Assembly: GCF_041435215.1 (NCBI RefSeq)
Contig: NZ_CP108394.1
Span: forward strand, 5,828,001-5,892,000
Direction: 5' to 3'
Origin: Streptomyces sp. NBC_01314
GTDB taxonomy: Bacteria > Actinomycetota > Actinomycetes > Streptomycetales > Streptomycetaceae
Length of the DNA stretch: 64,000 bases
Position numbers and translations under genes: made by a program. Below, piece after piece: positions 9,240 to 61,382 of this stretch. Numbering within the stretch: the stretch's first letter is position 1; every line of letters starts with the position of its first letter. Under the pieces are notes generated by a model, which was not told where the DNA came from, ran no database searches, and saw nothing but the letters and a program-made list of their open reading frames with translations.

Positions 9240-9324
9240 CGGTAGCGGAGGGATTTGAACCCTCGGTGACTTGCGCCACACTCGCTTTCGAGGCGAGCTC
9301 CTTCGGCCGCTCGGACACGCTACC
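9240..9324 (-). tRNA. tRNA-Ser(CGA)
   Basis: 85 bases with a 7-bp acceptor stem GGTAGCG/CGCTACC, an anticodon stem CTCGC/GCGAG around the loop CTCGAAA (anticodon CGA, reading UCG), the long variable arm of a class II tRNA, and the T-loop GTTCAAATC. The discriminator base is G, as expected for tRNA-Ser. CCA is not encoded. Confidence 0.95.
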
Positions 9325-29679: not shown

Positions 29680-30705
29680 TCACACCCAGCCGCGCTCCCG
29701 TGCGAGGAGTGCCGCGTGCGCCCTGCTGCTCGCGCCCAGGATGCGCAGTACGTCGGCGACATGCCGGCGGTACGTCCGCACCGACACACCCAGCGTGCGC
29801 GCCCCCGATTCGTCCTTGCCGACGTGGCACATCGCTTCCAGGACCTGCTGCTCCATCTCCGAGAGCCCGCCGCCCGCCGCCCCTGCCCGCTCGTCGATGA
29901 GCACGGTGAGATCGGTGGCCTGGTCCCAGATCTTCTCGAACAGCGCCAGGATGTTCGCGACCAGCCCCGCCTCCCGGGCGAGCAGCGCGCCGCGCCGGGT
30001 GTCGGCCGGGTCGACCGGGACGAGCGCTGTCCGGCGGTCGTAGACGAGGAGCCGTTCCGCGATGGTGTCCGCGACCCGGATCTGCGCGCCGAGCGAGGTG
30101 AGGTCGCGCAGATAGCCGACGGTCGGCGGATGGTCCAGGGCTTCGCGCAGTACGACGTTGCGTATCCGTACCCCGCGCCGCAGGCAGCGGGTGTCGAGCG
30201 GCCGGGCGTGCTCGATGTTCGCCGGGGTCAGCTCGGTGTACGGCTCGACCGAGAGGATCTCCTCGCGGGCGAAGAACGCCAGGTCGTCGATCCGGCCCCG
30301 GATCTGGCCGAGATCCTCCAGGCGCTCGATCCTCCCGGAGTCGGGCGGCTCCTTCAGGCTTTGCTCGGCGCGCAGGCCGGCTATCAGGTGCCGGGACTGG
30401 GTGACCTGCTGGAGCTGCTGGTGGAGTTCGCGCAGCCGCAGGTCGGTGAGCCGGTCCACGGCGGTCTCGGGGTCGGCGGCGGAGATCACCTCGGGCCCGC
30501 CGTCCGTTCCGGGTCCGGTCCTGGTCCCTTCCGTTCCGTGCAGCAGGCCGAGCTCGGACAGGCGCTCCAGCGCGCTCCCGATCTCGTCCAGCGGGACATG
30601 CAGCAGCAGCTGGATGTCCTCGGCGGTCGTGCCGGGGTTCCGTAGAAAGTGCCGGTAGATGCCCTCTTCCGTATCGGTGAGTCCGAGTACGGACAATTCC
30701 CCCAT
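29680..30705 (-). CDS. LuxR-type transcriptional regulator with TrmB-like N-terminal domain (RiPP cluster regulator)
   Basis: 341 residues from the ATG at 30705, preceded by GGAGGC. Residues about 1-55 form a TrmB/HTH-like segment (LTDTEEGIYRHFLRNPGTTA, then DEIGSALERLSELGLL). A middle domain of about 200 residues includes EEILSVEPYTELTPANIEHA and ERLLVYDRRTALVPVDP, typical of actinobacterial TrmB-LuxR regulators. The C-terminus is a LuxR helix-turn-helix, MEQQVLEAMCHVGKDESGA and LGVSVRTYRRHVADVLRILG. It is divergent from the RiPP operon with a 282-base shared promoter region, so it probably controls it. No kinase receiver domain is present. Confidence 0.85.
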   Translation of the reverse strand: MGELSVLGLTDTEEGIYRHFLRNPGTTAEDIQLLLHVPLDEIGSALERLSELGLLHGTEGTRTGPGTDGGPEVISAADPETAVDRLTDLRLRELHQQLQQVTQSRHLIAGLRAEQSLKEPPDSGRIERLEDLGQIRGRIDDLAFFAREEILSVEPYTELTPANIEHARPLDTRCLRRGVRIRNVVLREALDHPPTVGYLRDLTSLGAQIRVADTIAERLLVYDRRTALVPVDPADTRRGALLAREAGLVANILALFEKIWDQATDLTVLIDERAGAAGGGLSEMEQQVLEAMCHVGKDESGARTLGVSVRTYRRHVADVLRILGASSRAHAALLARERGWV

Positions 30706-30940
30706 GGTGCCTCCGTGCACAACTCAATCGGTCGCCGGGTGCAAGTCGGCGCGCTGGTCGGGCGCGAGGACGGCCTGAATCCGGCGGTGTGATCCCTGTG
30801 AGGGTACCTGCAACAAGCTGCACGGTCACTGGCAGCAAGTAGCGCCCTGGAACTGCCCGATGACGTGCTCCGGTTTGGCATTGTTCTCCGTGTCGGAACG
30901 AACGAACGCCGACAGAAGAAAGAGAAACGCAGGACAAGCA

Positions 30941-30991
30941 GTGCCGAGCAGCATCAACGAATTACTTCGCGAAATGGAGGACAGGGCATGA
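30941..30991 (+). CDS. Candidate tiny coupled leader ORF with a TTA codon
   Basis: A 16-residue reading frame, MPSSINELLREMEDRA, with AGGA six bases before its GTG (30941); a GTG at 30890 would give 33 residues. Its stop TGA overlaps the ATG of the LLM gene (ATGA), the hallmark of translational coupling. One codon is TTA, which in Streptomyces needs the bldA tRNA. Whether it is translated is unproven. Confidence 0.35.
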   Translation: MPSSINELLREMEDRA

Positions 30992-31971
30992 CTTCTTATT
31001 CCGTACTCCTGCCCTTTCTTCCGCGCCGGCCGGAGCAAATCCTTCCGTATGCCGGACTGGTGCACTGGAGCAACGCGAGCCGCCTCTGGCAGGGGCAGTC
31101 CGTGATGATCGAGCCGCACCAGGGATTCGTCGCGGCGGCGGGAGCGGGATTCCGTGTGCCGACCGGCCTCGGCGTCACGCTCATGCCGCTCCGCCACCCG
31201 TACGAGGCCGCTCTCCAGGCCCGCTCGCTGGCGATGGCCACCGGGCAGCCGGTGATCGCCGGATTCGGGCCCGGCGGCCGGCCGTTGCAGCGGTCGCTGC
31301 TCGGCGAGGCGTACCGCAGTCCGCTCACGGCGGCGCGCGAGTACCTCTCGATCGTGCGCGGACTGCTGGCGGGCGAGACGGTCGACACCCGGGGCGAGTA
31401 CTTCAGCTGCCGGGCCGAGATGCCTCGCTACCCGGTGCCGGGCGTCGAGATCGGGCTCGGTGTGCTGCGGCCCGGCATGGCGAAACTCGCGGGTGAGGTC
31501 GCCGATGTCGCCGTGACCTGGCTGACTCCGGCGCACTATCTGCGGGACACCGTGCTCCCTGCGATGCGCGAGGGCGCGGCGAACGCGGCGGACGGCAAGG
31601 GGGGCAAGGGGCGTAGGACCCCGAGGCTCACCGCCATCGTGCCGCTCGCCCTCGCCCGGCCCGACCGCGAACCCGCCGAACTGGCGCTCGCGAGCAACGC
31701 CGCCCATCTCCAAGGCGCCCACTACATCGACATGTTGCGACGGTCCGGGACGGATGTCGCCGGTGACGACCCGGCGGCGAACGCCAAGGCGCTCGTCGAC
31801 GGCGGGGCGTTCCTCAGCGGAGACCCGGACGAACTCGTCGGAAAACTGGGCGCGTTCCGCGAGGCAGGGGTGGACGAGGTCGTCCTGAACCTGACCGGCG
31901 TTTGCAATCTGTACGGCCCACAAGCGGCCCTGGACGAAACGAAGCGAATTCTGGCCGCCCTGGCCGCCTGA
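30988..31971 (+). CDS. LLM-class (luciferase-like, probably F420-dependent) oxidoreductase of the RiPP cluster
   Basis: 327 residues with GGAGG seven bases before the ATG. It is a luciferase-like TIM barrel: SYSVLLPFLPRRPEQILPYA at strand 1, GLGVTLMPLRHPYEAALQAR at the cofactor-proximal strand, GFGPGGRPLQRSLLGEAY, REYLSIVRGLLAGETVDTRG, and the C-terminal FLSGDPDELVGKLGAFREAG typical of F420 LLM enzymes. In other lanthipeptide clusters LLM enzymes reduce dehydroalanine/dehydrobutyrine to D-Ala/D-aminobutyrate. It is the first gene of the presumed operon. Role here is inferred from its partner LanKC and the Ser/Thr-rich precursors. Confidence 0.88.
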   Translation: MTSYSVLLPFLPRRPEQILPYAGLVHWSNASRLWQGQSVMIEPHQGFVAAAGAGFRVPTGLGVTLMPLRHPYEAALQARSLAMATGQPVIAGFGPGGRPLQRSLLGEAYRSPLTAAREYLSIVRGLLAGETVDTRGEYFSCRAEMPRYPVPGVEIGLGVLRPGMAKLAGEVADVAVTWLTPAHYLRDTVLPAMREGAANAADGKGGKGRRTPRLTAIVPLALARPDREPAELALASNAAHLQGAHYIDMLRRSGTDVAGDDPAANAKALVDGGAFLSGDPDELVGKLGAFREAGVDEVVLNLTGVCNLYGPQAALDETKRILAALAA

Positions 31972-31991
31972 CCGTGGGGGAATACGAAACA

Positions 31992-33068
31992 ATGGCTGAT
32001 CTGAAAGAGCGGCTCATCCGCTGGGGGACTGGCACGGCCAGTTCCGGTACCAGAACCAGTATTAGTGCCGGTGAATTCAGGTACGACGGCGTGGAAACCG
32101 TCGTACTGGAAAGCCGGGAACACCTTACGGCGATGCTGAATTCCGGCGTCGTCGGAACGGACACGCTGGTACTCGTGCCCGGTGCGGCCGCCGGACCCGG
32201 CGAGGACACGACGGCGGACGGCCGCCGCGTCGTCGGGATCGTCGGGTACGAAGGGTCGCTGGCCGGGGCCGGCGGGGAGTTCTCACCGGGCGCGGGCTTC
32301 TACCTCCAGATCCAGGGCTACGGCATCAGCGAGTACATGTCCGTCGCCGGGCCGACCCTTGTCCGGATCGCCGACGACACGGACTTCGACGTCTTCCTCG
32401 CCGACGCCGACCGGGCCCTGCTCGACGGCACCTTCCCCGACTTCCTCACCCACCCCGCCATCCAGCTCGCCGACCTCCCCGGCCTGGGCGCCGGCCGCAC
32501 ACCGGCCGCCGGACCCCGGTACCGGCTGTACGTCGACGCGGACGGGGCGGTCTCCACCACGCCGGGCGGTACCCGCCTCGGTACGGCGGGCGACGGGCCC
32601 GAACTCCTCGACGCGCGGTGGCAGCGGCTCAACAGTGGCGCACAGACAACCTGCGCGGTGTGCCTGGGGACGGTCGTGGACCACGACCTACGGCGTACGG
32701 AACTGGCCGCGAGGCCCTGGCTCGGGCGCTACCTGGCCGCCCTCGGCGCGATCCGGGCCCTGCGTGCCCGGGGCGTGGACGGCAGCATCCGGGTCTCCGG
32801 CTTCGGCGGGCGGATCACCGACGCGCTGGCCGCCGACGCGGACGCCGACGCCGATCTGCGGGACGAGGACGCGCCGTTCCTCCTCTGGACCGACCAGGAC
32901 ATGTACGTCCACGCCCCTGCGCCCAGCCGCACCTTCAGCGTGGAACGGTCCGCCGCCACGCCGGTCGAGGCGCTGCTGGCCTGCGGTTCGGCCGAGGCGG
33001 CGGCGGAGTACGCCGATCCGGACCACACCGTACGCATCGAGCGGTTCCTCGCCCGGGCCGGAGTGTGA
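31992..33068 (+). CDS. mpaB: Daptide-type RiPP recognition protein (MpaB-like)
   Basis: 358 residues from the ATG at 31992 with GGGGGAA upstream. No catalytic domain is visible. Position first among the daptide enzymes, size and architecture match MpaB, the RRE-containing partner that in the Microbacterium mpa system is needed with MpaC for oxidative decarboxylation of the precursor's C-terminal threonine. Recognisable parts are FRYDGVETVVLESREHLTAM, a central TTCAVCLGTVVDHDL with a CxxC, and a C-terminal alpha/beta half (WLGRYLAALGAIRALRARG, EDAPFLLWTDQDMYVHAP). The RRE fold itself cannot be proved by eye. Its stop is followed after 5 bases by the methyltransferase start. Confidence 0.72.
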   Translation: MADLKERLIRWGTGTASSGTRTSISAGEFRYDGVETVVLESREHLTAMLNSGVVGTDTLVLVPGAAAGPGEDTTADGRRVVGIVGYEGSLAGAGGEFSPGAGFYLQIQGYGISEYMSVAGPTLVRIADDTDFDVFLADADRALLDGTFPDFLTHPAIQLADLPGLGAGRTPAAGPRYRLYVDADGAVSTTPGGTRLGTAGDGPELLDARWQRLNSGAQTTCAVCLGTVVDHDLRRTELAARPWLGRYLAALGAIRALRARGVDGSIRVSGFGGRITDALAADADADADLRDEDAPFLLWTDQDMYVHAPAPSRTFSVERSAATPVEALLACGSAEAAAEYADPDHTVRIERFLARAGV

Positions 33069-33073
33069 CCACG

Positions 33074-33940
33074 ATGACCACCCTGACCACCCTGACCAGC
33101 CCGACGGCACCGCCCACCCCGACGGCACCGCCCACCATCCCCGGACGAGCCGGGGAGCTGCTCGCCGAGCTCGGCTCCCGCGCCGTCACCGGCGACCTCT
33201 ATGCCGAAGCGGGCGCGCAGGTCTACCACGACGTGGCCGGCCGCAGCACCCACGAGGTACGTGAACTGACCGGCCTCGTAAGGACCTTGCCCGGCGATGT
33301 CCTCGACCTGGCGGCCGGCTCCGGGCGGCTGACCATGCCGCTGCTCGCGCTGGGCCGCCACGTCACCGCCCTCGACCTCTCCCCGTACATGCTGCGGCTC
33401 CTGGAAGACCGGCTGGCCGCAGCGCCCGCCGCCCTGCGTGAGCGTTGCACGGTCGTCGAGGCCGACATGAGCGCCTTCGCGCTCGGCCGCACCTTCCCGG
33501 TGATCGTCCTCGGCACCACCTCCGTCTCGCTCCTCGACGAGCGCGGCCGGACCGGTCTCTACCGGGCCGTACGCCAACACCTGGCGCCTGGCGGCCGGTT
33601 CCTTCTGTCGACCGTCGGCATGGACACGGACTCCGGCCAGCCCGCCGAAGCCGAACTGGTGGTGGAAGCCGAAGCCGGCCGCGCCTACCGGATGTACGAG
33701 CACTGGGCGGTCGGCGACAGCGCCCGCACGGTCACCGTCTTCCCGGCCCGGATCCCGGACGACGACAGCCCCGTCCAGGTCACCACGACCAGCGTCGGCG
33801 TGCTGCCCGCCGCCCTCCTCGAAGCCGAGCTGGGCGCCGCCGGATTCGCCGTCCGCGCCCGGCACCCGCTGCCGGCCGTCGGCTCCCGCCATCACGACGT
33901 ACTGCTCGAAGTACTGCTCGAAACGGAGGTCACGCCATGA
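33074..33940 (+). CDS. mpaM: Daptide-type SAM-dependent N-methyltransferase (MpaM-like)
   Basis: 288 residues from the ATG at 33074; a GTG at 33065 overlapping the previous stop is an alternative. After a Thr/Pro-rich N-terminus (LTTLTSPTAPPTPTAPP) comes a class I methyltransferase: motif I GDVLDLAAGSGRLTMPLL, an acidic residue after strand 2 in HVTALDLSPYMLRLL, CTVVEADMSAFALGRTF (motif II), and YRAVRQHLAPGGRFLLSTVG. In daptides this enzyme dimethylates the amine made by MpaD to give the dimethyl-propanediamine terminus. It overlaps the aminotransferase start by 4 bases. Confidence 0.88.
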   Translation: MTTLTTLTSPTAPPTPTAPPTIPGRAGELLAELGSRAVTGDLYAEAGAQVYHDVAGRSTHEVRELTGLVRTLPGDVLDLAAGSGRLTMPLLALGRHVTALDLSPYMLRLLEDRLAAAPAALRERCTVVEADMSAFALGRTFPVIVLGTTSVSLLDERGRTGLYRAVRQHLAPGGRFLLSTVGMDTDSGQPAEAELVVEAEAGRAYRMYEHWAVGDSARTVTVFPARIPDDDSPVQVTTTSVGVLPAALLEAELGAAGFAVRARHPLPAVGSRHHDVLLEVLLETEVTP

Positions 33941-35244
33941 GTCCCGTACACACGAAGAACACGAAGAACGCGCTGTGGCCGTCCCTCCTGGCCCCCGCCC
34001 TGCACGGCTCGGACGCGCTCTGCGCGGTCTCCGCGCACGGAGTACGGGTCCGGTACGCCGACGGCAGCGAACTCCTCGACGCCTCCAGCGGGTTGTGGAA
34101 CACCAACATCGGCTACGGCAACGAGGCCATCGCCCGGGCCGCCGCCGACGCGCTCCGCGAAGCCTCGTACCTGAGCGTCTTCCGCTACGAGAACACCTAC
34201 GCCCGTGCCGCGGCCGCCGCCCTCGTCGAGCTGTGCGGCGCCGACAGCTACGGCCGGGTCCTCTTCTCGACCTCCGGCGGCGCCGCCAACGACCTCGTCA
34301 TGAAGCTCGCCCGCCACTACCACGCCCTGCGCGGCGAGGACCGCCGCAAACTCGTGGTCGGGCTGCGCGGCAGCTACCACGGTCTGACGTACGGCAGTTT
34401 CGCGCTGACCGGCGAGGACCTCGGACAACAGGTGTACGGCGTCGACCAACGGCTCATCCGCCACGTCGACCCCAACGACCCGGTCGGCATCCGTACCTTG
34501 ATGGAGCGTCAGGGCGCGATGGTCGCGGCCGTCGTCGTCGAGCCGGTGCTCGGCTCGGGGGCGGTACCGCTCACCGAGGAGTACGTCGACGAGCTGCTGC
34601 GGCTGCGCGAGGAGTACGGCTTCCTGCTGGTCGCCGACGAAGTGGCCACCGGCTTCGGCCGTACCGGCGACTTCTTCGCCTCCCAGCGCTGGTCCGCCCG
34701 GCCCGACCTCCTGGTGACCTCCAAGGGGCTCACCAACGGTACCGGCGCCGCCGCCGCCGTCATCGCCTCGCACACGGTCGCGGACGCCTTCGACACGGCG
34801 GGCGCCATGCTGACCCACGGCGAGACCCAGGCCGGCACCCCCGTCACCTGTGCCACCATCCTGGCCACCATCGCCGAGATGCGCCGCCTGGACGCGGTCG
34901 CCCTCGGCCGGGCCCTGGGCGAGCGGCTGGACGCGGAGCTGTCCGGGTTGGTCGACGAGCACCCCTGGGTGACGGGTACCACCGGTGTGGGCTGTTTCCG
35001 GTCACTGCGACTGACCACCCCGGACGGGGAACCGCTGCCGCAGGCACGCGTCCCGGAGCTGGTCGCCGCGATCCGTACGGCGGGTGCCATCGTGCACCCT
35101 GGCGTCCACGGCATCCAGCTCTTCCCCGCGCTGACCTACACCGACGCGGAACTGACCGAACTGATGGACCGCATCCGCACCGGACTGGCCCTGTTCACAA
35201 GCCGGTCGGCGCAGGCGGAAGCGCGCACAGAGGTACCGGCATGA
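33937..35244 (+). CDS. mpaD: Daptide-type class III aminotransferase (MpaD-like)
   Basis: 435 residues; its ATG overlaps the methyltransferase stop (ATGA). Class III PLP-aminotransferase features are complete: LLDASSGLWNTNIGYGNEAI, SGGAANDLVMKLARHYH, GLRGSYHGLTYGSFALTG, LLVADEVATGFGRTGDFF with the PLP Asp, and DLLVTSKGLTNGTGAAAA with the Schiff-base Lys. In the daptide pathway it aminates the methyl ketone left after decarboxylation of the precursor's terminal Thr. Its stop overlaps the start of the dehydrogenase gene, so the enzymes are made from one message. Confidence 0.9.
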   Translation: MSPVHTKNTKNALWPSLLAPALHGSDALCAVSAHGVRVRYADGSELLDASSGLWNTNIGYGNEAIARAAADALREASYLSVFRYENTYARAAAAALVELCGADSYGRVLFSTSGGAANDLVMKLARHYHALRGEDRRKLVVGLRGSYHGLTYGSFALTGEDLGQQVYGVDQRLIRHVDPNDPVGIRTLMERQGAMVAAVVVEPVLGSGAVPLTEEYVDELLRLREEYGFLLVADEVATGFGRTGDFFASQRWSARPDLLVTSKGLTNGTGAAAAVIASHTVADAFDTAGAMLTHGETQAGTPVTCATILATIAEMRRLDAVALGRALGERLDAELSGLVDEHPWVTGTTGVGCFRSLRLTTPDGEPLPQARVPELVAAIRTAGAIVHPGVHGIQLFPALTYTDAELTELMDRIRTGLALFTSRSAQAEARTEVPA

Positions 35245-36485
35245 GCTACGGCCGGGGCGGACCGACCCGGGCGCTGATCGGTCCCGACGCACTCACGGCA
35301 TGGCTCCCCGACGGGGCGGGCCGCACGGCCGCCCTCCTCGTGGACAGCGCTGTCGCGACGGCGGCGATCACGGCCTTGGTACGGGACCGCCTCGGCCGGG
35401 CCCACTGGCGGACGACCCAGACACCACTGACCACCGGCCCCGGTGATCTCGGCGCGGCCGCCGCGATCGCCGAAGGCCTCGCCGACACGTCGGCCGGCGT
35501 CGGCCTGGTGGTCGCCATAGGCGGCGGATCGGTGCTCGACCAGGCGAAGATCGCGGCCCTGCTGCGGGCCAACCCGGTCGCGTACACCCGCCTCACCGTG
35601 CCCCAGCGCGGCGGCCTGATGGGCCTGCCGGGCGAGGTCACCCGTACCGTCCCGCTGCTCGCCGTACCGACCACCCTCGGCACCGGCAGCGAGCTGAGCG
35701 CGGTCGCCTGCCTGGCGTACCCGCAGGGCAAGCGGCTGATCCTCGGCGGCGTACTGCGGCCGGAGGCGGCGCTGCTCGATCCGTCGGCCACCGCCACACT
35801 GCCCTACGAGCTGGTCGTGGAGGGCGTCCTGGAGGCGCTGTTCCGGGCGGTCAGCCCGTACGCCGGTGACCACCGGGACGACCGCCGCACCGAGGACCGT
35901 CTCACGGAGACGGTCGCCCGGAGGCTCGTCCAGCTGGGCTACGAGGCGGTACGGGAAGGAAGGCCGAGCGACGCGCTCCGCCTCGACATCGCGAAGCTCA
36001 GCGGGCTCACGCACGGTGAATGGCTGCACCAGGGCCGCGACCCGTACGCGGTCAAGGGCTGGCTCATCGCCAACGAGATGTCGTCGGCCCTGGGCGTACG
36101 GAAGATGACGGCCGTCGCCGCGCTGCTGCCGCACCTGTGGCGGGCCGTGCTCGACGGGGAGCCACGGCTGGGCTCCGCGCCGCGGCTGCACCGGATGTGG
36201 GCGGGGCTGCGCGACGCCGCACCACAGGACCGGGCGCGGGCCCTGCCCGAGGACCCGGCCGACGGGATCGCCGCCCTGATGGACGACTGGCGGGTGGGCC
36301 GGCGGCTCACCGCCGACGGCCCGGGGCAGATCGAGGCCCTGGCCGAGCGGACGGTACGGGCCTGGGGCGCCGGGCTGCCGATGCTCGGCGGGCTCCGGGC
36401 GGAGGATGTGCGCCGCCTGCTGGACGCGGCGCTCGGCGCGACCACCGCGCACGCCACGCCCGCCGCGTACGCCGCGCACACCTGA
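35241..36485 (+). CDS. mpaC: Daptide-type oxidative decarboxylase, iron-alcohol-dehydrogenase fold (MpaC-like)
   Basis: 414 residues, ATG overlapping the aminotransferase stop. The NAD-binding part of the group III alcohol dehydrogenase fold is intact: VVAIGGGSVLDQAKIAALL and LLAVPTTLGTGSELSAVACL. The metal site looks altered: where typical enzymes read DALTH, this protein reads EALFR, and the later HG.A/H region reads as RKMTAVAALLPHLWRA. MpaC catalyses oxidation of the Thr hydroxyl with loss of the C-terminal carboxylate; a metal-free NAD mechanism would fit the altered residues. The two precursors follow 79 bases later. Confidence 0.85.
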   Translation: MSYGRGGPTRALIGPDALTAWLPDGAGRTAALLVDSAVATAAITALVRDRLGRAHWRTTQTPLTTGPGDLGAAAAIAEGLADTSAGVGLVVAIGGGSVLDQAKIAALLRANPVAYTRLTVPQRGGLMGLPGEVTRTVPLLAVPTTLGTGSELSAVACLAYPQGKRLILGGVLRPEAALLDPSATATLPYELVVEGVLEALFRAVSPYAGDHRDDRRTEDRLTETVARRLVQLGYEAVREGRPSDALRLDIAKLSGLTHGEWLHQGRDPYAVKGWLIANEMSSALGVRKMTAVAALLPHLWRAVLDGEPRLGSAPRLHRMWAGLRDAAPQDRARALPEDPADGIAALMDDWRVGRRLTADGPGQIEALAERTVRAWGAGLPMLGGLRAEDVRRLLDAALGATTAHATPAAYAAHT

Positions 36486-36563
36486 GACTTCCGCTCCCGG
36501 TCCCGGGAGCGGGCGGAAAGAGAGCAACGGCTCTCAACACTCATGAGAAAAGGGGGAGTTCCC

Positions 36564-36737
36564 ATGCAGGAGAACTTCGACAACAACGACTTCAGCTCCG
36601 CCCTGGAGCTGGGTATGCAGGAGCTCGAGGCGATGGAGGCCCCGGGCTGGTGGACCGCTGGTGGCGTCGTCGTGGGCGCGACCGTCGTGTCGGCCGTCGG
36701 CGTCTCGACGGGCGTCGCCGTCTCGATCATCACCTGA
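36564..36737 (+). CDS. Daptide-type precursor peptide A1
   Basis: 57 residues from the ATG at 36564, with AGGGGGAG 8 bases before; an ATG at 36543 lies before this ribosome site. The leader contains ALELGMQELEAMEAPG, shared almost letter for letter with the second precursor. The core that follows, from WWTAGG to the end VAVSIIT, is hydrophobic and Gly/Val-rich with seven Ser/Thr and no Cys, Lys or Arg, so it should be membrane-active. The C-terminal Thr is the class-defining substrate residue. The exact cleavage site, probably near APG, is inferred. Confidence 0.88.
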   Translation: MQENFDNNDFSSALELGMQELEAMEAPGWWTAGGVVVGATVVSAVGVSTGVAVSIIT

Positions 36738-36812
36738 TTCACTCGACTGCATCTCGACTCGATTCAGTCCCATCAGTCTCATCAGTCTCAACTCAACGGG
36801 AGGGGAACAGAT

Positions 36813-36968
36813 ATGAAGGACATCGCCACGCAGGAGCCGACCGGCTTCGAGGCATCGCTGGAGCTGGGCATGCAGGAGCTGGAGGCCATGGAGGCCCCGG
36901 GCTTCTGGAGCGGTTTCAAGACCGGCGTCGTGATCAGCACCGTCGCCAGCGCGGTCATCGCCACCTGA
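36813..36968 (+). CDS. Daptide-type precursor peptide A2
   Basis: 51 residues; the ribosome site is GGGAGGGGAA before the ATG at 36813. The leader motif LELGMQELEAMEAPG is identical to A1. The core reads FWSGFKTGVVISTVASAV then IAT, again without Cys and ending in Thr. It has an aromatic pair (FW against WW in A1) directly after APG. Two paralogous cores in one cluster suggest a two-peptide product or two variants. It is followed by a 9-bp tandem repeat and a large hairpin. Confidence 0.88.
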   Translation: MKDIATQEPTGFEASLELGMQELEAMEAPGFWSGFKTGVVISTVASAVIAT

Positions 36969-36975
36969 TCCGGCC

Positions 36976-37051
36976 GATCGACCGGATCGACCGGATCGAC
37001 CGGATCGACCTGATCCACCGGATCCACCGGATCCACCGGATCCACCGGATC
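36976..37051. repeat. 9-bp tandem repeat downstream of precursor A2
   Basis: Eight 9-base units plus four bases: GATCGACCG three times, GATCGACCT once, GATCCACCG four times, then GATC. The unit switches variant in the middle, suggesting expansion by slippage. Each unit contains GATC. Confidence 0.9.
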
Positions 37052-37074
37052 AGCGGCAACTGAACCGCATACGG

Positions 37075-37130
37075 ATTTCCGCGGCGGCGTCCCTGGGACC
37101 TCAGAGGACCCCGGGCCGCCACCGCGGAAT
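37075..37130 (+). terminator. Hairpin between the precursors and the export genes, possible partial terminator
   Basis: ATTTCCGCGGCGGC (37075-37088) is nearly complementary to GCCGCCACCGCGGAAT (37115-37130), with a GC-rich inner stem, followed by CTTCGTTTTCC. A leaky terminator here would raise precursor mRNA above that of the downstream genes. Confidence 0.5.
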
Positions 37131-37195
37131 CCGCGCTTCGTTTTCCGCCACCTCCCCCCACCTGAGTCCCACCAAGTCCGACCAAGGAGTCCAGC

Positions 37196-37393
37196 ATGGC
37201 CAACAGCCGGGACAAGGCAGCGGCCGAGAACAAGAACCTCGCCTTCGCCTGCGCGCTCATCCCGCTCGGCATGGCGGTCGCGACCACGCAGCTGACGGGC
37301 GGCCTCGAGATCTTCGTCATGGCCGGCCTCGGCGCCGTCATGCTGAGCTGCCTGGTCCGGATCGGCGCCAACCTCCGTAAGGCACGCCGTTGA
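37196..37393 (+). CDS. Small two-helix membrane protein of the RiPP cluster
   Basis: 65 residues, AGGAG six bases before the ATG. It starts MANSRDKAAAENKN, has two hydrophobic segments (FACALIPLGMAVATTQL and FVMAGLGAVMLSCLV) and a basic C-terminus RIGANLRKARR. It overlaps the ABC ATPase start (TTGA) and so is probably a component of export or self-immunity. No homologue is recognised. Confidence 0.65.
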   Translation: MANSRDKAAAENKNLAFACALIPLGMAVATTQLTGGLEIFVMAGLGAVMLSCLVRIGANLRKARR

Positions 37394-38175
37394 GTACCGC
37401 GAACGCACCGAGCACCGGCGCCGCCCCCGTCGTCGCCCTGCGCGGCCTGACCAAGCGCTTCGGCGAGGTCACGGCGGTCGACGACCTGACGTACGAGGTG
37501 CAGCCCGGCCGGATCGTCGGCCTCCTCGGCCGCAACGGAGCCGGCAAGACCACCTCGCTGCGGATGCTCCTCGGCCTCTGCCGGCCGACCTCAGGCGAGG
37601 CGACCGTCTTCGGCCGCCCGTACGCCGAACTGCCTCACGCCGCCCGCCGGGTGGGCGTCAGCATGGACGCCGTAGGACCGCTGCCGGGAGCCAGTGCCCG
37701 ACGCGAACTCACCATCTGGGCCAGGACCCTGGGCCTGCCCAAGCAGCGCGTCGAGGAGGTCCTCGAACTGGTCGGCCTGGCCGACGGCGGTGCGGCCTCC
37801 CGCCCCGTCAAGGGCTACTCGACCGGCATGAAACAGCGCCTCGCGCTCGCCACCGCCCTGCTCCCCGACCCCGAACTCCTCGTCCTGGACGAGCCCGCCA
37901 ACGGCCTCGACCCGGACGGCATCCGCTGGCTGCGCGGCCTGCTGCGTGGCCTGGCCGACGAGGGCCGGACCGTCCTCGTCTCCAGCCATCTCCTCTCCGA
38001 GGTGGAACAGACCGTGGACGACGTCGTGATCATCCAGAGCTCGCTGCGGTACGCCGGTCCGCTCGAAGGACTCGTCGGCGCGGGCGCCGGGGAACGCCTC
38101 GAAGACCGGTTCTTCTCCCTGGTCGGCACCGCGACGACCGCGTCATCCGCTGTCGGAGGAAAGAACCATGCGTAA
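37390..38175 (+). CDS. ABC transporter ATP-binding protein (RiPP export)
   Basis: 261 residues, starting at a TTG that overlaps the previous stop. Walker A is GLLGRNGAGKTTSLRML, the signature is GYSTGMKQRLALATALL, Walker B is LLVLDEPANGLDPDG, and the switch His is in TVLVSSHLLSEVE. This is the CcmA/BcrA-like class commonly paired with ABC-2 permeases that export or give immunity to peptides. It overlaps the permease gene by 8 bases. MpaT-like role in exporting the mature peptides is inferred. Confidence 0.92.
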   Translation: MSTANAPSTGAAPVVALRGLTKRFGEVTAVDDLTYEVQPGRIVGLLGRNGAGKTTSLRMLLGLCRPTSGEATVFGRPYAELPHAARRVGVSMDAVGPLPGASARRELTIWARTLGLPKQRVEEVLELVGLADGGAASRPVKGYSTGMKQRLALATALLPDPELLVLDEPANGLDPDGIRWLRGLLRGLADEGRTVLVSSHLLSEVEQTVDDVVIIQSSLRYAGPLEGLVGAGAGERLEDRFFSLVGTATTASSAVGGKNHA

Positions 38176-38914
38176 CCTGCTCGCCGGCGAATGGGCCAAG
38201 GCCTGGACCGGCCGCGGCTGGCTGATCCTGGCCGGGTGCGGCGTCCTGATGTCCCTGCTCGGTGCCCTCGGTTACGCCTCCCAGGGTGCCGCGGCCATCG
38301 AGGAGGGCACCATGGGCCGGGCCGCCGTCACCGATGACATCGTCCGCTCCTGGTTCATGATGTCGCTCTTCACCTCTCTCTTCGGCGCGATCTTCGTGTC
38401 CCGCGAGTACACCTCGGGTGCCATCGGCCGCTCCGTCCTGATGAGCGGCGGCAGCCGTACCCGCCTGCTCGCCGCCAAGGTGCTGACCGCCACCGCCGTG
38501 GGCGCCCTCGCCGCGCTGCTCACCGCCGCGCTGTCCCTCGCCTCCGCCTGGGGAACACTCGCCGCCAACGGGGCCGAGCCCGCGTGGCACGGCGAGACCT
38601 GGCTGATCCTGCTGGGCGTCTTCGCCGTCAACACGCTCGCCGCTCCCTGGGGCGCGCTGATCGGCTGGATCGTCCGGCACCAGGTCGGGGCCGTCGTGAC
38701 CGTCGTCGCGCTGACCCTGGTCGTCGATCCGGCGGTGCAGGTCCTGGTGCCGGAGGCCGGCAGGTACCTGATGACGATCGCCCAGAGCTCCGTCTACCGG
38801 GACACGAAGCCCGAGCTGCTGTCCACGCCGCTCGCGCTGCTGGTGATCGCGGGCTGGCTGGCGGCCGCCGGGCTGCTCGCCCGGAAGCTGTTCACCGCCC
38901 GCGATGTCGTCTGA
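38168..38914 (+). CDS. ABC-2-type permease (RiPP export)
   Basis: 248 residues, six membrane helices by eye: GWLILAGCGVLMSLLGALGY, SWFMMSLFTSLFGAIFVS, VLTATAVGALAALLTAALSL, WLILLGVFAVNTLAAPWGAL, VGAVVTVVALTLVV, and LALLVIAGWLAAAGLLA. SREYTSGAIGRSVLMSGG is the typical BcrB/NatB-type cytoplasmic loop. It starts inside the ATPase gene, so the two are made together as a half-transporter pair. Confidence 0.88.
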   Translation: MRNLLAGEWAKAWTGRGWLILAGCGVLMSLLGALGYASQGAAAIEEGTMGRAAVTDDIVRSWFMMSLFTSLFGAIFVSREYTSGAIGRSVLMSGGSRTRLLAAKVLTATAVGALAALLTAALSLASAWGTLAANGAEPAWHGETWLILLGVFAVNTLAAPWGALIGWIVRHQVGAVVTVVALTLVVDPAVQVLVPEAGRYLMTIAQSSVYRDTKPELLSTPLALLVIAGWLAAAGLLARKLFTARDVV

Positions 38915-39004
38915 CGTCGACCGAGCCCGCTGAAGCCCGCCACGTCCCGCCGTCCTGAGCCCGTCCTGAGCCCGACCCCGAACTCCGTGAGGAGAGAACC
39001 AGGC

Positions 39005-40672
39005 ATGCCCAGCACACCCGCCGGTGCCGTACTACTGGCCCCCGAGCGGCTGGCCCGACCCCGCCTCGCCACCGATGTGGTGGTCCACGAGCCGGCCGAG
39101 CCGGGCGCGCCCTGGGTGGTGCAGCGCGGCAGCCACCAGTACTTCCGCCTCCAGGAGGACCTGGCCCGCCTCGTCCGGGCCGTGGACGGCGTACGTGACC
39201 ACGACGACCTGGCCGACGCCCTCGGCGCGCCCTGGACCCAGGCCGACGTCGGCTCGGCGGTGCGGACACTCGCCGGGGCGAAGGTGCTGGACGACGGGGT
39301 GCCGAAGAAGGACCGGAGTTCATGGTTCCGGTTCGTCCCGCCGCTCACCCTCCAGTTCACCCTCCTCAAGCCGGACCGGCTGCTGGCCCGGCTCGCCCCG
39401 CTGGTGGCGGCCGCCGCGAACCGTAAGGCCGCCGTGGCCGCCTCGGCCGTCACGATCGGCGGACTGCTCGCCCTGGCCCTCCGAACGGCCGATCTCCAGG
39501 GTGCGTTGGGGCGCCCCTTCGCGCCCCTGCTCTACCTCTGCGTGATCGGCGCGGTGCTCGCCACCACCGCCGTCCACGAGATCGGCCACGGCGCGGTCCT
39601 CACGTACTACGGCGGACGGCCGACCCGGATGGGCATGATGCTCTTCTACATGTCGCCGGCCTTCTTCTGCGATGTGTCCGACGGCTGGCGGCTGCCGCGC
39701 AAGGAGCAGCGGGTACGGGTCGCACTCGCCGGAATCGCCACCCAGACCGTCATCGCCGGGGGCGCCGCCCTCGCCACCCTCTTCATGGGCGACTCGGCGG
39801 CGCGCGACGGGGTCCTCGTGTACGCCGTCGTCACCTACCTCTCCGGCATTCTCAACCTCCTGCCGTTCGTGAAACTGGACGGCTACATCGCGCTGATGAG
39901 CCACCTCGACATCCCGCATCTGCGCGACCGGGCGATGACCGACGCCCGCAGATGGCTGGCCCGCCTGCTGATCGGCGGCACCGGCTACCGCCGCGAACTG
40001 CATGGCGTGCGCTGGGCGGTCCCCTTCGGCCTGCTCTGCATGACCTTCCCGCTCTACATCGTGGCGGGCGCGATCACCCTCTGGTCGGACAGCCTCCAGC
40101 GCCTCGGCGCCCTGGGCGCGCTCCTCGTGCTGTGCGGCATCGGCTACTTCCTCCACCACCTGGCGCGTGGCGTACGCCGCTTCGCCCGCGAGGCCCGTAC
40201 GGCGGGCGGGCGCCCCTGGCGCCTCGGCGCGGTGCTCGCCCTCGCCGCTGCCACCATCGCCGTACTCGGGCAGCTGGTCCAGGTCCCGTACACCGTCAAC
40301 GGCGGCTATACGACGGCCGAGGACGGCCGGATCACGCTGCTCCTGCCCCTCTCCACCGACCCTGCGCTGATCGAGGCCGGTGCCCCGGTCCGCCTCTACC
40401 GCGCCGGCATCGCGACCCGCGAGCAGACCGGCGCCGCGACGGTCGCCGTCGACGGGGCGGACGGCACGGACGCCATGGCCCCGCTGTCGGCGCTGATCCC
40501 GGTCAGCAGCGACGCCCTGCCGACCCCGGCGCTCGGCCTTCCGCTGGAGGTACGCCAGGCACGGGGCCAGGCTCCCGCCGACGCTTCGGGCACGGCCCAG
40601 CTGGACGCGGGCAGCCGGCCGGGCTGGGAGTGGCTCTACACCAAGTACCTCGCGCCTGCCTGGCGCTGGTAG
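39005..40672 (+). CDS. mpaP: Daptide-type intramembrane M50 metalloprotease (MpaP-like)
   Basis: 555 residues from the ATG at 39005, preceded by GAGGAGAG. The N-terminal ~100 residues are soluble, with SHQYFRLQEDLARLVRAVDG and DLADAL resembling a PqqD-like/RRE fold. The site-2-protease active site is TAVHEIGHGAVL (His 191, Glu 192, His 195), completed by NLLPFVKLDGY. Around ten hydrophobic segments follow, then a C-terminal exported domain. In daptide clusters this enzyme is taken to remove the leader peptide at the membrane. The order export genes then protease supports coupled maturation and release. Confidence 0.88.
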   Translation: MPSTPAGAVLLAPERLARPRLATDVVVHEPAEPGAPWVVQRGSHQYFRLQEDLARLVRAVDGVRDHDDLADALGAPWTQADVGSAVRTLAGAKVLDDGVPKKDRSSWFRFVPPLTLQFTLLKPDRLLARLAPLVAAAANRKAAVAASAVTIGGLLALALRTADLQGALGRPFAPLLYLCVIGAVLATTAVHEIGHGAVLTYYGGRPTRMGMMLFYMSPAFFCDVSDGWRLPRKEQRVRVALAGIATQTVIAGGAALATLFMGDSAARDGVLVYAVVTYLSGILNLLPFVKLDGYIALMSHLDIPHLRDRAMTDARRWLARLLIGGTGYRRELHGVRWAVPFGLLCMTFPLYIVAGAITLWSDSLQRLGALGALLVLCGIGYFLHHLARGVRRFAREARTAGGRPWRLGAVLALAAATIAVLGQLVQVPYTVNGGYTTAEDGRITLLLPLSTDPALIEAGAPVRLYRAGIATREQTGAATVAVDGADGTDAMAPLSALIPVSSDALPTPALGLPLEVRQARGQAPADASGTAQLDAGSRPGWEWLYTKYLAPAWRW

Positions 40673-40710
40673 CCGAGAAGCCGAGACGGAGAGGTACAGG
40701 GAGAACGATC

Positions 40711-43467
40711 ATGGATCTCCGGTATGTGACTTACTGCCAGGCGGGCAACGCGTTCTACGAGGATCCTGCGACCGCCGCCGCCACCACCGAGCCCGCTGAC
40801 GTCCTGGCGGAACCCCCCGTCGGCTGGACCCGGACCGTCAACGGCGACTGGGTGGTGCTGACCCCGCCGCACACCGAACTCCCCGGCCAGGGCTGGAAGA
40901 TCCATGTCTCGGCGACCCGGGACAACGCCGACCGCATCCTCGACGTCGTACGCGCCTACTGCGTACGTGAGCGGCTCACCTTCAAGTACATCCGCAGCGC
41001 CAAGGCTTTGAACCGGCGCAACAGCAAGTACGGCGACCGCGGCGCGAGCGGCAAGTTCATCACCGTCTACCCGCCGGACGAGCCCCAGCTGGAGCGGGTG
41101 CTCGTCGAGCTGGACGCCGAGCTGGGCGGCGAGCCCGGCCCGTACATCCTCAGCGACCTGCGCTGGCGTTCCGGCCCGCTCTACGTCCGTTACGGCGGCT
41201 TCGTCGCCCGCCTCGGCCGGGACGCGAAGGGCGACCCGGTGCACTGCATCGAGGACCCGGACGGCCGCCTCGTCCCCGATGTACGCGGCCCCGGCTTCCG
41301 GCCGCCCGCGTGGGTGACGCTGCCGGACTGCCTCGCCGAGTCGCTGGCGGCCCGTAACGCGAGCACGATGGGCGACTTCCCGTTCCGCGCGGTCAGGGCG
41401 CTGCACTTCTCCAACGGGGGCGGCGTCTACGAGGCCGAGGACCTGCGCCAGAACCCCGGTACGGAATCCTCCGCCTCCGTGCTCCTCAAGGAGGCCCGCC
41501 CGCTGGCCGGCCTCGACGAGGAGGGCGAGGACGCGGTGGCCCGGCTGGAGCGGGAGCGCTGGGCGCTGGAGCGGCTGGCGGGACTGGACTGCGTACCGCC
41601 GCTGATCGACTACCGCAAAGGCCGCGAACACTACTTCCTGGCACGGGAGTTCGTGCCGGGTGCCTCGCTCCACACCCGCATCCACGAGTCCAACCCGCTG
41701 CTGAACCCGGATGCCGACGCCTCCCCCGAGTCGTTCGCGGCGTACACCTCCTGGGCCCTGTCCGTCATCGACCAGATCGACGCGGGCGTGCGGGCCATGC
41801 ACGCCCGGGGCGTGGTCTTCGGTGATCTGCACCCCAACAACGTCCTGGTCCGGCCGGACGGCTCGATCGCCTTCATCGACCTGGAGACGGCGAGCCCCGT
41901 CGACGACGCGGCACCTCAGACGATCGGCGCGCCCGGCTTCCGCGCCCCGGCCGGTTACGTGGGCCCGGCGGTCGACCGGTACGCGCTCGGCTGCCTGCGG
42001 CTCGCGGTGTTCCTCCCGCTGACGGTGGTGCTGAGCTGGGGCCGGGAGAAGACGCAACAGCTGATCGCGCTGGTGACGGAGAACTTCCCGGTACCGGCGG
42101 ACTTCGCGGAACGGGTGGAGACGGATCTGGCGAGCCCGGAGACCGCCGAGACGGCCGAGGCCACCGAGACCGGCGCGGACGCTGAGATCGCAGTGAGTGC
42201 TGGGGTCATCGAGGCGGGTGCGGATGCTGTGACCGCCGTGAGCGCCAGGGCCGTTGAGGCCGGCGCCCGCGACGAGACTGCCGTGGCTGTCGGCGTCGGC
42301 GTCGGCGTGGCCGTGGCCGTGGCCGACGCGGGCGTCGAGCTCGCCGCTGCCCCGGTCTGGCCCGAGACCCTCACCCCCGCCGACTGGCCGTCCCTGCGCG
42401 CGTCACTCTCGGCCGGAATCCTGGCCGCCGCGACCCCGGACCGCGAGGACCGTCTCTTCCCCGGCGACATCGCCCAGTTCACCGCCCCGGGCGGCGGCCT
42501 CAACCTCGCCCACGGCGCCGCCGGAGTCCTCTGGGCGCTGGGCAGCGCGGGTGCGGAGATCCCGGCCGCGCACGTGGACTGGCTGACCGAGCGCGTACGC
42601 CGCTGGCCCGAGCCCCGCCCCGGCTTCTACGACGGCCTGCACGGCATCGCGTACGCCCTCGACGCCCTGGGCCGTACGGCCGAGGCCCGTGAAGTCCTGG
42701 ACCGGGCCCTCGCCCTGCCGATGGACGACCTTGACGGCTCCCTCTTCGCCGGCCTCCCCGGCATCGGCCTCTCCCTGCTCCACTTCGGCCACCTCGACGC
42801 GGCCGAACGCCTCGCGGAGCTGGTCGCGGACCGTACCCCGGGCGGCTACGCGGCCCGCCCACGACCGGGCCTGCTGTACGGGGCGACGGGCGCGGCGCTG
42901 TTCCTGCTACGGCTGTACGAGAAGACGGGCGACCGGAAACTGCTGCACGGAGCGGTGGAGGCGCTGCGTCACGACCTCGCCGAGTTGTCGTCCGGGCCGG
43001 GCATCAGCCGCATGCCGTACCTGGCGGTGGGCGGGGCGGGAGTGGCGATGGTCGTGAGCGACGTACTCCCTCATCTCCCATCCCCAGACCCGGAGTTGAG
43101 AGACGCCCTCCCCGTCCTCCACTCATCGGTGACGGCTCTCTACCAGGCCCAGACGGGCCTGTTCCAGGGCCGCGCCGGGGCAACCCTCGCCCTGCGTCAC
43201 CTACGCGCCAGAACGCCGGAGCCGGGGCGGGAGTCGAAGCCAGGGCTGGAGTCGGAGACCGAGGCCGCGGTACGCCGCCACCTGGTGGCCTTCGGCTGGC
43301 ACGCCATCCCGTACGCGGGCCACCCCGCCTTCCTCGGCGACCAGACCCTGCGCCTGTCGACCGACCTCGCCACCGGCACGGCCGGGGTCCTGCTCGCCCT
43401 TGACGAAGCACTCGGCTCGGGCGGGGGCCTGCCGTTCTTCCCGTCCTCCAGCCGCCGCACTTCATGA
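40711..43467 (+). CDS. lanKC: Class III lanthionine synthetase LanKC
   Basis: 918 residues, AGGGAG before the ATG. Three domains: an N-terminal phosphoSer/Thr lyase-type region (RYVTYCQAGNAFYEDP at the start, FKYIRSAKALNRRNSKYG, GKFITVYPPDE); a Ser/Thr kinase with Lys 260, FGDLHPNNVLV (catalytic Asp 372) and FIDLETASPV (metal Asp 390); and a C-terminal LanC-like cyclase region (HGAAGVLWALGSAG, GFYDGLHGIAYALDALG) lacking the zinc Cys/His ligands, so class III, not IV. A Glu/Ala/Val low-complexity linker (about 470-550) joins kinase and cyclase. It phosphorylates and eliminates Ser/Thr; ring formation is impossible with Cys-free precursors of this cluster. Confidence 0.93.
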   Translation: MDLRYVTYCQAGNAFYEDPATAAATTEPADVLAEPPVGWTRTVNGDWVVLTPPHTELPGQGWKIHVSATRDNADRILDVVRAYCVRERLTFKYIRSAKALNRRNSKYGDRGASGKFITVYPPDEPQLERVLVELDAELGGEPGPYILSDLRWRSGPLYVRYGGFVARLGRDAKGDPVHCIEDPDGRLVPDVRGPGFRPPAWVTLPDCLAESLAARNASTMGDFPFRAVRALHFSNGGGVYEAEDLRQNPGTESSASVLLKEARPLAGLDEEGEDAVARLERERWALERLAGLDCVPPLIDYRKGREHYFLAREFVPGASLHTRIHESNPLLNPDADASPESFAAYTSWALSVIDQIDAGVRAMHARGVVFGDLHPNNVLVRPDGSIAFIDLETASPVDDAAPQTIGAPGFRAPAGYVGPAVDRYALGCLRLAVFLPLTVVLSWGREKTQQLIALVTENFPVPADFAERVETDLASPETAETAEATETGADAEIAVSAGVIEAGADAVTAVSARAVEAGARDETAVAVGVGVGVAVAVADAGVELAAAPVWPETLTPADWPSLRASLSAGILAAATPDREDRLFPGDIAQFTAPGGGLNLAHGAAGVLWALGSAGAEIPAAHVDWLTERVRRWPEPRPGFYDGLHGIAYALDALGRTAEAREVLDRALALPMDDLDGSLFAGLPGIGLSLLHFGHLDAAERLAELVADRTPGGYAARPRPGLLYGATGAALFLLRLYEKTGDRKLLHGAVEALRHDLAELSSGPGISRMPYLAVGGAGVAMVVSDVLPHLPSPDPELRDALPVLHSSVTALYQAQTGLFQGRAGATLALRHLRARTPEPGRESKPGLESETEAAVRRHLVAFGWHAIPYAGHPAFLGDQTLRLSTDLATGTAGVLLALDEALGSGGGLPFFPSSSRRTS

Positions 43468-43733
43468 CAGGCCGCCGCGTCGTCCTGATCGAACCCCGCT
43501 CCACCGAGGTGGCCGGTGCCCCGGAACTCGCAGCCGTACGGTTCATCTCCCTGCTGCCCGAAGACTGGGACTACGAACCGGAGTTCGCGGGCAAACGCTT
43601 CACCGTTCGCCTTGGTTGCCCTACGAAGACGGACCTGGACCTGGACCTGAAAATGGCCCGGGCGCTGGACCGGATCTTCACCGACTCATCCCTGCGCGCC
43701 TGGCGCTGGACCGACATCACGCACCACACGTGA
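43464..43733 (+). CDS. Small protein at the end of the RiPP operon, unknown
   Basis: 89 residues; the ATG overlaps the lanKC stop (ATGA), so translation is coupled. It begins MTGRRVVLIEPRSTEVAGAP and has FISLLPEDWDYEPEFAGKRF, TDLDLDLKMARALDRIFTDS and WRWTDITHHT. It is soluble, mixed alpha/beta by composition and has no recognised domain. Its coupling to LanKC suggests an accessory role in dehydration or leader binding. Confidence 0.7.
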   Translation: MTGRRVVLIEPRSTEVAGAPELAAVRFISLLPEDWDYEPEFAGKRFTVRLGCPTKTDLDLDLKMARALDRIFTDSSLRAWRWTDITHHT

Positions 43734-47026: not shown

Positions 47027-47148
47027 GCCGGGAACATTACATGACGTCGGAGGGTGGTTGCGAACCCGTTCGACCGCGGGTGATCGATGAGGGAGGCAGG
47101 GGTGGGGAGGCGGCTCGGTGGCCGCCGGGGATCGGGTACGCTGGGCTC

Positions 47149-47237
47149 AGCCCCTCACGCGGCGCTATCTGACTGAACTCCCCCAGGGCCGGAAGGCAGC
47201 AAGGGTAGGTTGGCTCTGGCGGGTGCGTGAGGGGTCT
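47149..47237 (+). ncRNA. ffs: SRP (4.5S-type) RNA
   Basis: CCCCTCACGC (47151-47160) pairs with GCGTGAGGGG (47225-47234), enclosing a rod with the Ffh-binding motif CCAGGGCCGGAAGGCAGCAA (near 47183-47202), where GGAAGGCAGCA is the conserved symmetric/asymmetric-loop region. A TACGCT -10 box at 47137-47142 places the transcript start close to 47149. It works with Ffh in co-translational targeting. Ends are approximate. Confidence 0.9.
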
Positions 47238-47421
47238 TGTGCATCCGGGCCCGCCCCGAGCCGAGGCCCCGAGGCCCCCACGTTGAGCCGATGGCTCGCG
47301 CTCCGGGCCGATGATCGCGAGCCGATCGCCGAGAGGCCTGTCGACGCTCAGGCGCCGCTTCGGCCCTGGTCTGCTTCCGCGGCGGTCCGTGTTGTCAGTG
47401 GGCGCCTATAACCTCGTAGGC

Positions 47422-56997: not shown

Positions 56998-57070
56998 AGC
57001 GGACGACCAGGTTCGAACTGGCGACCTCAACCTTGGCAAGGTTGCGCTCTACCAACTGAGCTACGTCCGC
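56998..57070 (-). tRNA. tRNA-Gly(GCC), copy 1
   Basis: 73 bases: acceptor GCGGACG/CGTCCGC, D-arm GCTCAGTTGGTAGAGC, anticodon stem CAACC/GGTTG around TTGCCAA (anticodon GCC), T-arm with GTTCGAACC, discriminator T. Identical to the second copy at 61159-61231. Confidence 0.95.
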
Positions 57071-61158: not shown

Positions 61159-61231
61159 AGCGGACGACCAGGTTCGAACTGGCGACCTCAACCTTGGCAA
61201 GGTTGCGCTCTACCAACTGAGCTACGTCCGC
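61159..61231 (-). tRNA. tRNA-Gly(GCC), copy 2
   Basis: Base-for-base the same as copy 1 at 56998-57070, with anticodon GCC and canonical T-loop. It precedes the atypical Gly(UCC)-like gene on the minus strand, so both could be in one transcript. Confidence 0.95.
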
Positions 61232-61310: not shown

Positions 61311-61382
61311 AGCGGGTGACAGGAATTGCACACTGCGCCTTCCCCCTGGAAGGGGGATGTTCTACTACTGAACTACACCCGC
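61311..61382 (-). tRNA. tRNA-Gly(UCC)-like gene with atypical T-arm
   Basis: 72 bases with acceptor GCGGGTG/CACCCGC, D-arm GTTC/GAAC, anticodon stem TCCCC/GGGGA around CTTCCAG (anticodon UCC). The T-arm reads CAGTGTGCAATTCCTGT, in which the usual GTTC of the T-loop is GTGC and the 5-bp stem does not form well. It lies 80 bases upstream of, and on the same strand as, tRNA-Gly(GCC). It may be the functional GGA-reading tRNA, or specialised. Confidence 0.7.

Follow-up and report, generated by a model that had tools for sequence, protein, structure and literature searches.

Genes and layout of the cluster

The window, a stretch of 64,000 nucleotides from Streptomyces sp. NBC_01314, contains a compact cluster at positions 29680-43733 in which every gene reported by an earlier, sequence-only reading was confirmed to be present. 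Beside a divergent regulator, the plus strand encodes, in order, an LLM-class reductase, DapB, DapM, DapD, DapC, the precursors A1 and A2, a 65-aa protein, an ABC ATPase, an ABC permease, DapP, LanKC and an 89-aa protein. The features are as follows (NCBIfam figures are score/curated cut-off).

29680..30705, minus strand: divergent regulator at the cluster edge, with a TrmB-like N-terminus and a weak LuxR-type C-terminus
30988..31971, plus strand: LLM-class F420-type reductase, putative LanJC/DapJ role (Pfam PF00296)
31992..33068, plus strand: DapB, daptide RRE recognition protein (NCBIfam NF041823, 416.9/150)
33065..33940, plus strand: DapM, SAM methyltransferase (NCBIfam NF041820, 335.8/175)
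33937..35244, plus strand: DapD, PLP aminotransferase (NCBIfam NF041821, 657.7/450)
35241..36485, plus strand: DapC, oxidative decarboxylase of the iron-ADH family (NCBIfam NF041822, 484.4/300)
36564..36737, plus strand: precursor A1, 57 aa (NCBIfam NF041808, daptide_123, 33.4/25)
36813..36968, plus strand: precursor A2, 51 aa (NCBIfam NF041808, daptide_123, 41.2/25)
37072..37135, plus strand: strong hairpin between the precursor and transporter genes, with a U-rich stretch behind it (-45 kcal/mol, z -4.78)
37196..37393, plus strand: small hydrophobic protein of 65 aa, encoded first in the exporter block (no family match)
37390..38175, plus strand: ABC exporter ATPase, DapT1 (best NCBIfam match a gallidermin-type protection ABC family, 178.4, below its cut-off of 309.75)
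38168..38914, plus strand: ABC exporter permease, DapT2 (assigned by position and by homologues behind T1 in related loci)
39005..40672, plus strand: DapP, RRE-fused intramembrane metalloprotease (NCBIfam NF041824, 529.7/300)
40711..43467, plus strand: LanKC (DapKC), putative Ser/Thr dehydratase (NCBIfam NF038151, 914.3/575)
43464..43733, plus strand: 89-aa protein whose start codon overlaps the LanKC stop (no family at cut-off)

Six adjacent gene pairs overlap by 4 to 8 bases, and the largest intergenic gap, of 227 bases, lies 3' of A2. The same gene order was found again in related loci, and the cluster is therefore no chance assembly; it is a genuine, intact-looking cluster of the daptide type tailored by LanKC/LanJC. 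The edge regulator scored 31.0/25.6 against Pfam TrmB and 18.0 against GerE, below the cut-off of 23.5, and copies that are 94-96% identical sit upstream of the LLM gene in the related loci L009-L011.

The sequence-only reading had placed the daptide enzymes, a complete LanKC, an LLM reductase and two Thr-ending precursors in one run and had proposed profile searches as a check. These bore it out: DapB, DapC, DapD, DapM and an actinobacterial-type DapP each scored above the NCBIfam equivalog/curated cut-off, as did both precursors and LanKC. The enzyme set behind its Mpa-style names likewise stands, with the letters corrected to the published scheme, in which B is the RRE protein, C the dehydrogenase and D the aminotransferase (Ren et al. 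2023, PMC10036551). An HExxH motif is present at residue 191 of DapP. In DapC, counting along an alignment to YqhD, the four positions that we take to be the metal ligands of iron-containing alcohol dehydrogenases read Glu198, Arg202, Asn278 and Lys288. All four ligand residues thus appear to be replaced, which agrees with the metal-independent activity reported for TfDapC (Dommaraju et al. 2025, PMC12338566). No YcaO family match was found among the 14 window proteins scanned, A1, A2 and the two ABC proteins being scanned with NCBIfam only.

The LLM protein passed the Pfam Bac_luciferase profile (PF00296, 94.2/27.9) and reached the cut-off of no NCBIfam LLM subfamily, the best being TIGR03564 (95.7/234.25). 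Given that these subfamily cut-offs were all missed, its use of F420 is deduced from distant relatives: when a profile of 19 LLM homologues was compared with solved structures, the F420-dependent enzymes Mer and FGD ranked first and FMN enzymes lower. The genome encodes the F420 gene cofH (536.9 against a cut-off of 374.1), and on this gene F420 is taken to be available in the host. The reductase is encoded together with LanKC, as in LanKC/LanJC tailoring, and by analogy it most likely reduces dehydroalanine (Dha) to D-Ala and perhaps dehydrobutyrine (Dhb) to D-Abu.

LanKC itself is complete, with lyase, kinase and LanC-like domains, and a profile of 18 daptide LanKCs aligned over almost its whole length with solved class III LanKCs, including 8sao. 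It is the only protein of its genome to pass the family cut-off; a partial match, confined to the N-terminal 87 positions, was seen at C1:1397553-1397846. At least one LanKC over cut-off was found in 44 of 61 genus members searched, the window's own genome included. Repeats at window positions 42139-42329 encode a long linker, rich in Ala, Val and Glu, between the kinase and cyclase domains, and this linker exceeds the length found in most of 17 aligned homologues.

Close relatives of the 65-aa protein number five in the protein database; L010 and L011 hold copies, and L023 matches weakly. The permease matched no family at cut-off in the NCBIfam scan. Of 19 genomes searched, four hold a homologue of the 89-aa protein, namely those of S. 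europaeiscabiei, S. stelliscabiei, S. scabiei and Streptomyces sp. APSN-46.1 (the last at 41%), and the protein database has 11 such proteins, itself included. The sequence of the hairpin at 37072-37135 is kept, with changes, in L010 and L011, and it is possible that this element acts as an attenuator favouring precursor mRNA. A scan for consensus promoters and terminators gave counts near those of shuffled sequences (1 vs 0.5 and 2 vs 2.6, respectively); one terminator-like match coincides with the 3' end of this hairpin. Directly behind A2, at 36961-37051, lies a 9-base repeat in ten copies. By eye, neither L010 nor L011 shows this array at the equivalent position, where L010 has other repeats.

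Daptide loci and their LanKC/LLM pair

DapB was found in 23 of 392 Streptomyces genomes searched; among 394 genomes sampled from the class, 17 had it over cut-off (19 at an E-value of 0.001). The window's own genome is included in both sets. Altogether 66 loci were read, 26 from named genomes and 40 from genome regions. Removal of 12 duplicates and one region without DapB gave 53 loci, the window not being counted; fragmentary or sub-cut-off matches (G146, G438, G672 and a second place in G124) were left out. In this set, whose sampling is uneven because a single pattern, tuned to relatives of the window, served to find the named loci, 38 loci encode both LanKC and the LLM enzyme, 10 neither, four the LLM enzyme alone and one LanKC alone. 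In all five single-gene loci, a contig or locus end truncates the sequence. Streptomyces contributes 39 of the 53 loci, with both genes in 35 and one gene in four (cut), and the 10 loci lacking the pair all come from other genera. The nearest relatives of the cluster are in S. europaeiscabiei, S. stelliscabiei and S. scabiei 87.22. The gene mix that had seemed striking is the usual form of an established kind of daptide cluster in Streptomyces and no rarity.

Nor are such hybrids new, as the sequence-only reading had thought possible: they have been published, with one product characterised (Ren et al. 2023; Dommaraju et al. 2025), so that the cluster itself is of limited surprise. LanKC/LanJC pairs occur among the daptide clusters described by Ren et al. 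(2023, PMC10036551). There, expression of the sca cluster of Streptomyces capuensis NRRL B-3501 is reported to yield a peptide with a Dmp end and five Ser converted to Ala, and Marfey's assay showed D-Ala; the host for sca, and likewise for mpa, was Streptomyces albus J1074. The window resembles sca, by published description rather than by sequence, in its primary daptide enzymes and its LanKC/LanJC pair. The tfDap cluster of Thermobifida fusca, reported in a study that counted 1,034 putative daptide clusters, comprises DapBCDMPT1T2 with DapKC and DapJ (Dommaraju et al. 2025, PMC12338566). Compared with the window, the locus of T. fusca NBRC 14071 (L019) is 45% identical in DapB and 66% in the LLM enzyme; unlike the window, tfDap is described as having five precursors and a YcaO protein that makes an imidazoline end (PMC12338566). 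The mpa cluster of Microbacterium paraoxydans is similar in its core daptide enzymes and precursor architecture but differs in having been chosen by Ren et al. as a cluster of primary enzymes only (PMC10036551). A Microbacterium locus in our set (L034, M. algeriense) is without LanKC and the LLM enzyme.

The LanKCs of daptide loci were compared with those found elsewhere in Streptomyces. Here, the daptide set consisted of the window and the 23 loci with a closed reading frame. In a quick unrooted tree (LG+G4, 77 sequences) with several long branches flagged, these 24 were split from 53 other Streptomyces LanKCs by a branch with an SH-aLRT of 99. Loss of the cyclase general base was considered as a mark of daptide LanKCs and rejected, there being no contrast with the other Streptomyces LanKCs. 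Cyclisation by ThurKC is reported to require Phe770 and Asp771 (PMC10604976). An Asp at the position of Asp771 was counted in 0 of 24 daptide LanKCs and 4 of 53 others, in a register inferred along the printed chain, offset by 3 from the paper's numbers, and with row L024 badly aligned at this point.

Precursor cores and a possible composite leader

The core of A1 has 30 residues, with three Ser, three internal Thr and a C-terminal Thr; that of A2 has 22 residues, with three Ser, two internal Thr and again a C-terminal Thr. Neither contains Cys. An RBS-like GGGGGAG lies upstream of A1. Both leaders carry the ELEAMEAP motif, which together with the terminal Thr marks A1 and A2 as daptide precursors. 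Precursors were found in 48 of the 53 loci (five yielded none), and Cys occurs in 0 of their 116 cores. Because the search pattern required Thr at the C-terminus, a leader end of daptide type and core hydrophobicity, these features are not independent findings; Cys was not selected against. A search of the window's genome with A2 at an E-value of 0.1 matched A2 and A1 only. The Cys-bearing precursor of a class III lanthipeptide is therefore found in neither A1, A2 nor the related cores, no (methyl)lanthionine or labionin can form within A1 or A2, and LanKC has no thiol to join. Judged from these Cys-free precursors, the product is not a LANTHIPEPTIDE.

Core composition differs with the presence of the pair. 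Ser makes up 16.5% of residues in 92 cores from 37 loci with both genes against 2.7% in 20 cores from nine loci without the pair, an approximately 6-fold higher content, and Thr, excluding the last residue, 8.1% against 1.8%. At the locus level, Mann-Whitney tests that ignore kinship gave p values of 4e-6 for Ser and 2.5e-4 for Thr. To map the state of the pair, a quick DapD tree was used in which the window joined 52 loci (53 rows in all), with four cut loci scored as pair-bearing and long branches flagged as unsure; the state changes at least two times, and strongly supported branches force one change only. Given so few state changes, the Ser, Thr and leader contrasts do not represent independent events. 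The Ser/Thr contrast amounts to roughly a single evolutionary event and is compatible with the proposed mechanism rather than proof of it.

An even spacing of Ser in the cores, as a possible D,L pattern, was considered and is not claimed, since it fades with stricter clustering. After an initial look with other clustering, which left 41 cores, clusters at 80% identity gave 127 even against 61 odd pairs (36 cores; 0 of 1000 shuffles as high) and clusters at 60% gave 36 against 22 (10 cores; 15 of 1000, or 81 of 1000 when small residues alone were shuffled); at 50% (5 cores; 128 of 1000 shuffles) the pattern was absent.

Sequence comparison revealed a second, class III-like box in both leaders.

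36609..36629, plus strand: leader box LGMQELE of A1, overlapping ELEAMEAP
36864..36884, plus strand: leader box LGMQELE of A2, overlapping ELEAMEAP

With a relaxed definition ([LIVM]x[LMIV]Qx[LMIV] within the last 32 leader residues), such a box (LxMQxL) overlapping the daptide box was present in all 96 precursors of the 39 pair-bearing loci (two of them cut, with one gene visible) and in none of the 20 from nine loci without the pair. The two leaders of L034 are among those lacking the box. Loosening the definition, so that Phe is allowed before Gln and the last position is free, brought in 3 of the 20 precursors of pair-less loci; a stricter form with an acidic residue or Asn last missed three of the 92 precursors whose loci have both genes. 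In these three, from L022, L026 and L027, a box LAMQEL is separate from the daptide box EELEGMEAP. Class III precursors encoded beside other Streptomyces LanKCs carry boxes such as LLDLQTIE and ILNLQQLE. Among 50 control loci, 27 gave an open reading frame with a labionin-type core and xLQ, of which 23 fit the strict box in a listed open reading frame; as xLQ was required by that search, this displays the box and is no test of it. Class III lanthipeptides (RamS-like precursors; ThurKC) share with the cluster the LanKC architecture and an LxLQxL leader box; the cluster differs in precursors without Cys, and so without thioether rings, and in the added daptide ELExMEAP box and LLM reductase.

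Published experiments bear on how the overlapping boxes might be read. Mutants of MpaA, which lose decarboxylation, point to Leu(-7) and Met(-4) as the residues recognised by DapB (Ren et al. 2023, PMC10036551), and TfDapBC is reported to remain active after truncation of the leader to residue -10 (Dommaraju et al. 2025, PMC12338566). On this reading, LanKC would be the main user of Leu(-12), Met(-10) and Gln(-9). With ThurKC and its substrate ThurA1, substitution of the leader residues Val(-19), Leu(-18) or Leu(-16) is described as stalling dehydration, Q(-15)A as stalling a reaction that can yet finish, and L(-13)A as without effect (PMC10604976). Given the latter, at a position seemingly equivalent to the shared Leu(-7), that Leu need not matter for LanKC. 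A single composite leader may serve both enzyme sets, on an association that rests on one or two evolutionary changes.

Proposed pathway and alternatives

The individual reactions set out here are deduced from characterised relatives; the gene identities and the absence of Cys are read directly from the DNA. A1 and A2 would be bound through one composite leader. DapB and DapC would oxidatively decarboxylate the C-terminal Thr to a ketone, which DapD would transaminate and DapM dimethylate to give Dmp. LanKC would phosphorylate Ser, and probably some internal Thr, and eliminate phosphate to leave Dha or Dhb; with no Cys available, no thioether ring would follow, and LanKC most likely acts here as a dehydratase only. 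The F420-type LLM enzyme would turn Dha into D-Ala, and possibly Dhb into D-Abu; DapP would cleave after the conserved Pro, and the ABC pair would export a hydrophobic, doubly amino-ended and partly D-configured peptide. For cleavage at that Pro, the calculated [M+H]+ of A1 is 2783.582 with Dmp only, 2735.597 with its three Ser also turned into Ala and 2687.612 with three internal Thr turned into Abu as well; the corresponding values for A2 are 2181.243, 2133.258 and 2101.268 (two internal Thr), and Ser dehydrated but not reduced would give 2729.550 for A1 and 2127.211 for A2. By analogy with the characterised systems, we consider it very probable that this is a LanKC/LanJC-tailored daptide cluster making Dmp-ended, D-Ala-bearing peptides without thioether rings from A1 and A2. 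Two chemistries would then probably meet on one peptide, as the sequence-only reading had proposed, with Ser probably becoming D-Ala and the tail end an amine; its description of the hybrid product as a lanthipeptide fails, given the lack of Cys in A1 and A2 for any (methyl)lanthionine or labionin.

A true lanthipeptide-daptide hybrid bearing such rings is suggested by the completeness of LanKC, in which the LanC-like domain is retained and whose score is that of a class III synthetase, but is very unlikely: neither precursor nor any of the 116 related cores supplies a Cys, the genome search with A2 offered no further precursor, and the published sister sca turns Ser into Ala (PMC10036551). 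The ring-free part of the pathway could also stop at dehydration, giving a hominicin-like Dha/Dhb daptide while the LLM enzyme does something else or acts partly. Hominicin, which has been recognised as a daptide, is reported to retain its dehydrobutyrines (PMC10036551), and LLM enzymes are diverse, that of the window falling below the subfamily cut-offs. Against such decoupling, 38 of 53 loci have both genes, the only single occurrences being those in the five cut loci, and D-Ala was found in the sca product (PMC10036551). We consider this outcome improbable, if somewhat less so than a ring-bearing hybrid.

Least probable of all, to the point of being nearly negligible, is a LanKC that just lies beside the daptide genes or is in decay and acts on some other precursor encoded far away. 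As the sole LanKC over cut-off in the genome, it would be needed by any other class III precursor encoded there. LanKC nevertheless sits after DapP in related loci, the daptide LanKCs stand apart from the 53 others on the tree, and the class III-like box appears in daptide leaders only where the pair is present.

Within the preferred reading of a LanKC/LanJC-tailored daptide cluster, the division of the leader can be drawn more finely, albeit as a tentative proposal that is rather more apt to fail than to hold. Here, Leu(-12), Met(-10) and Gln(-9) would form the dock for LanKC and Leu(-7) and Met(-4) that for DapB and DapP, internal Thr would also be converted, and the product would combine D-Abu, D-Ala and Dmp. 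On the same tentative footing, the daptide leader would have acquired its class III box by grafting, along with the enzymes and the rise in core Ser and Thr. No statement of a composite leader was found in the parts of PMC10036551, PMC12338566 and PMC11002830 that were covered, a scope mostly outside subscription journals and supplements, nor one of internal Thr conversion in the corresponding parts of Ren et al. (2023) and Dommaraju et al. (2025). The composite leader and the possible D-Abu are the new points added by this analysis, and both are testable. If the proposal is true, the LxMQxL box predicts which daptide precursors are LanKC substrates, a simple and testable rule for how one leader could serve two RiPP enzyme sets; genome miners could then predict D-amino-acid daptides, and engineers could join D-Ala formation to C-terminal amine formation.

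Outside the cluster, the window also contains a bacterial small SRP RNA at 47146-47242 and tRNAs at 9240-9324, 56998-57070, 61159-61231 and 61311-61382.
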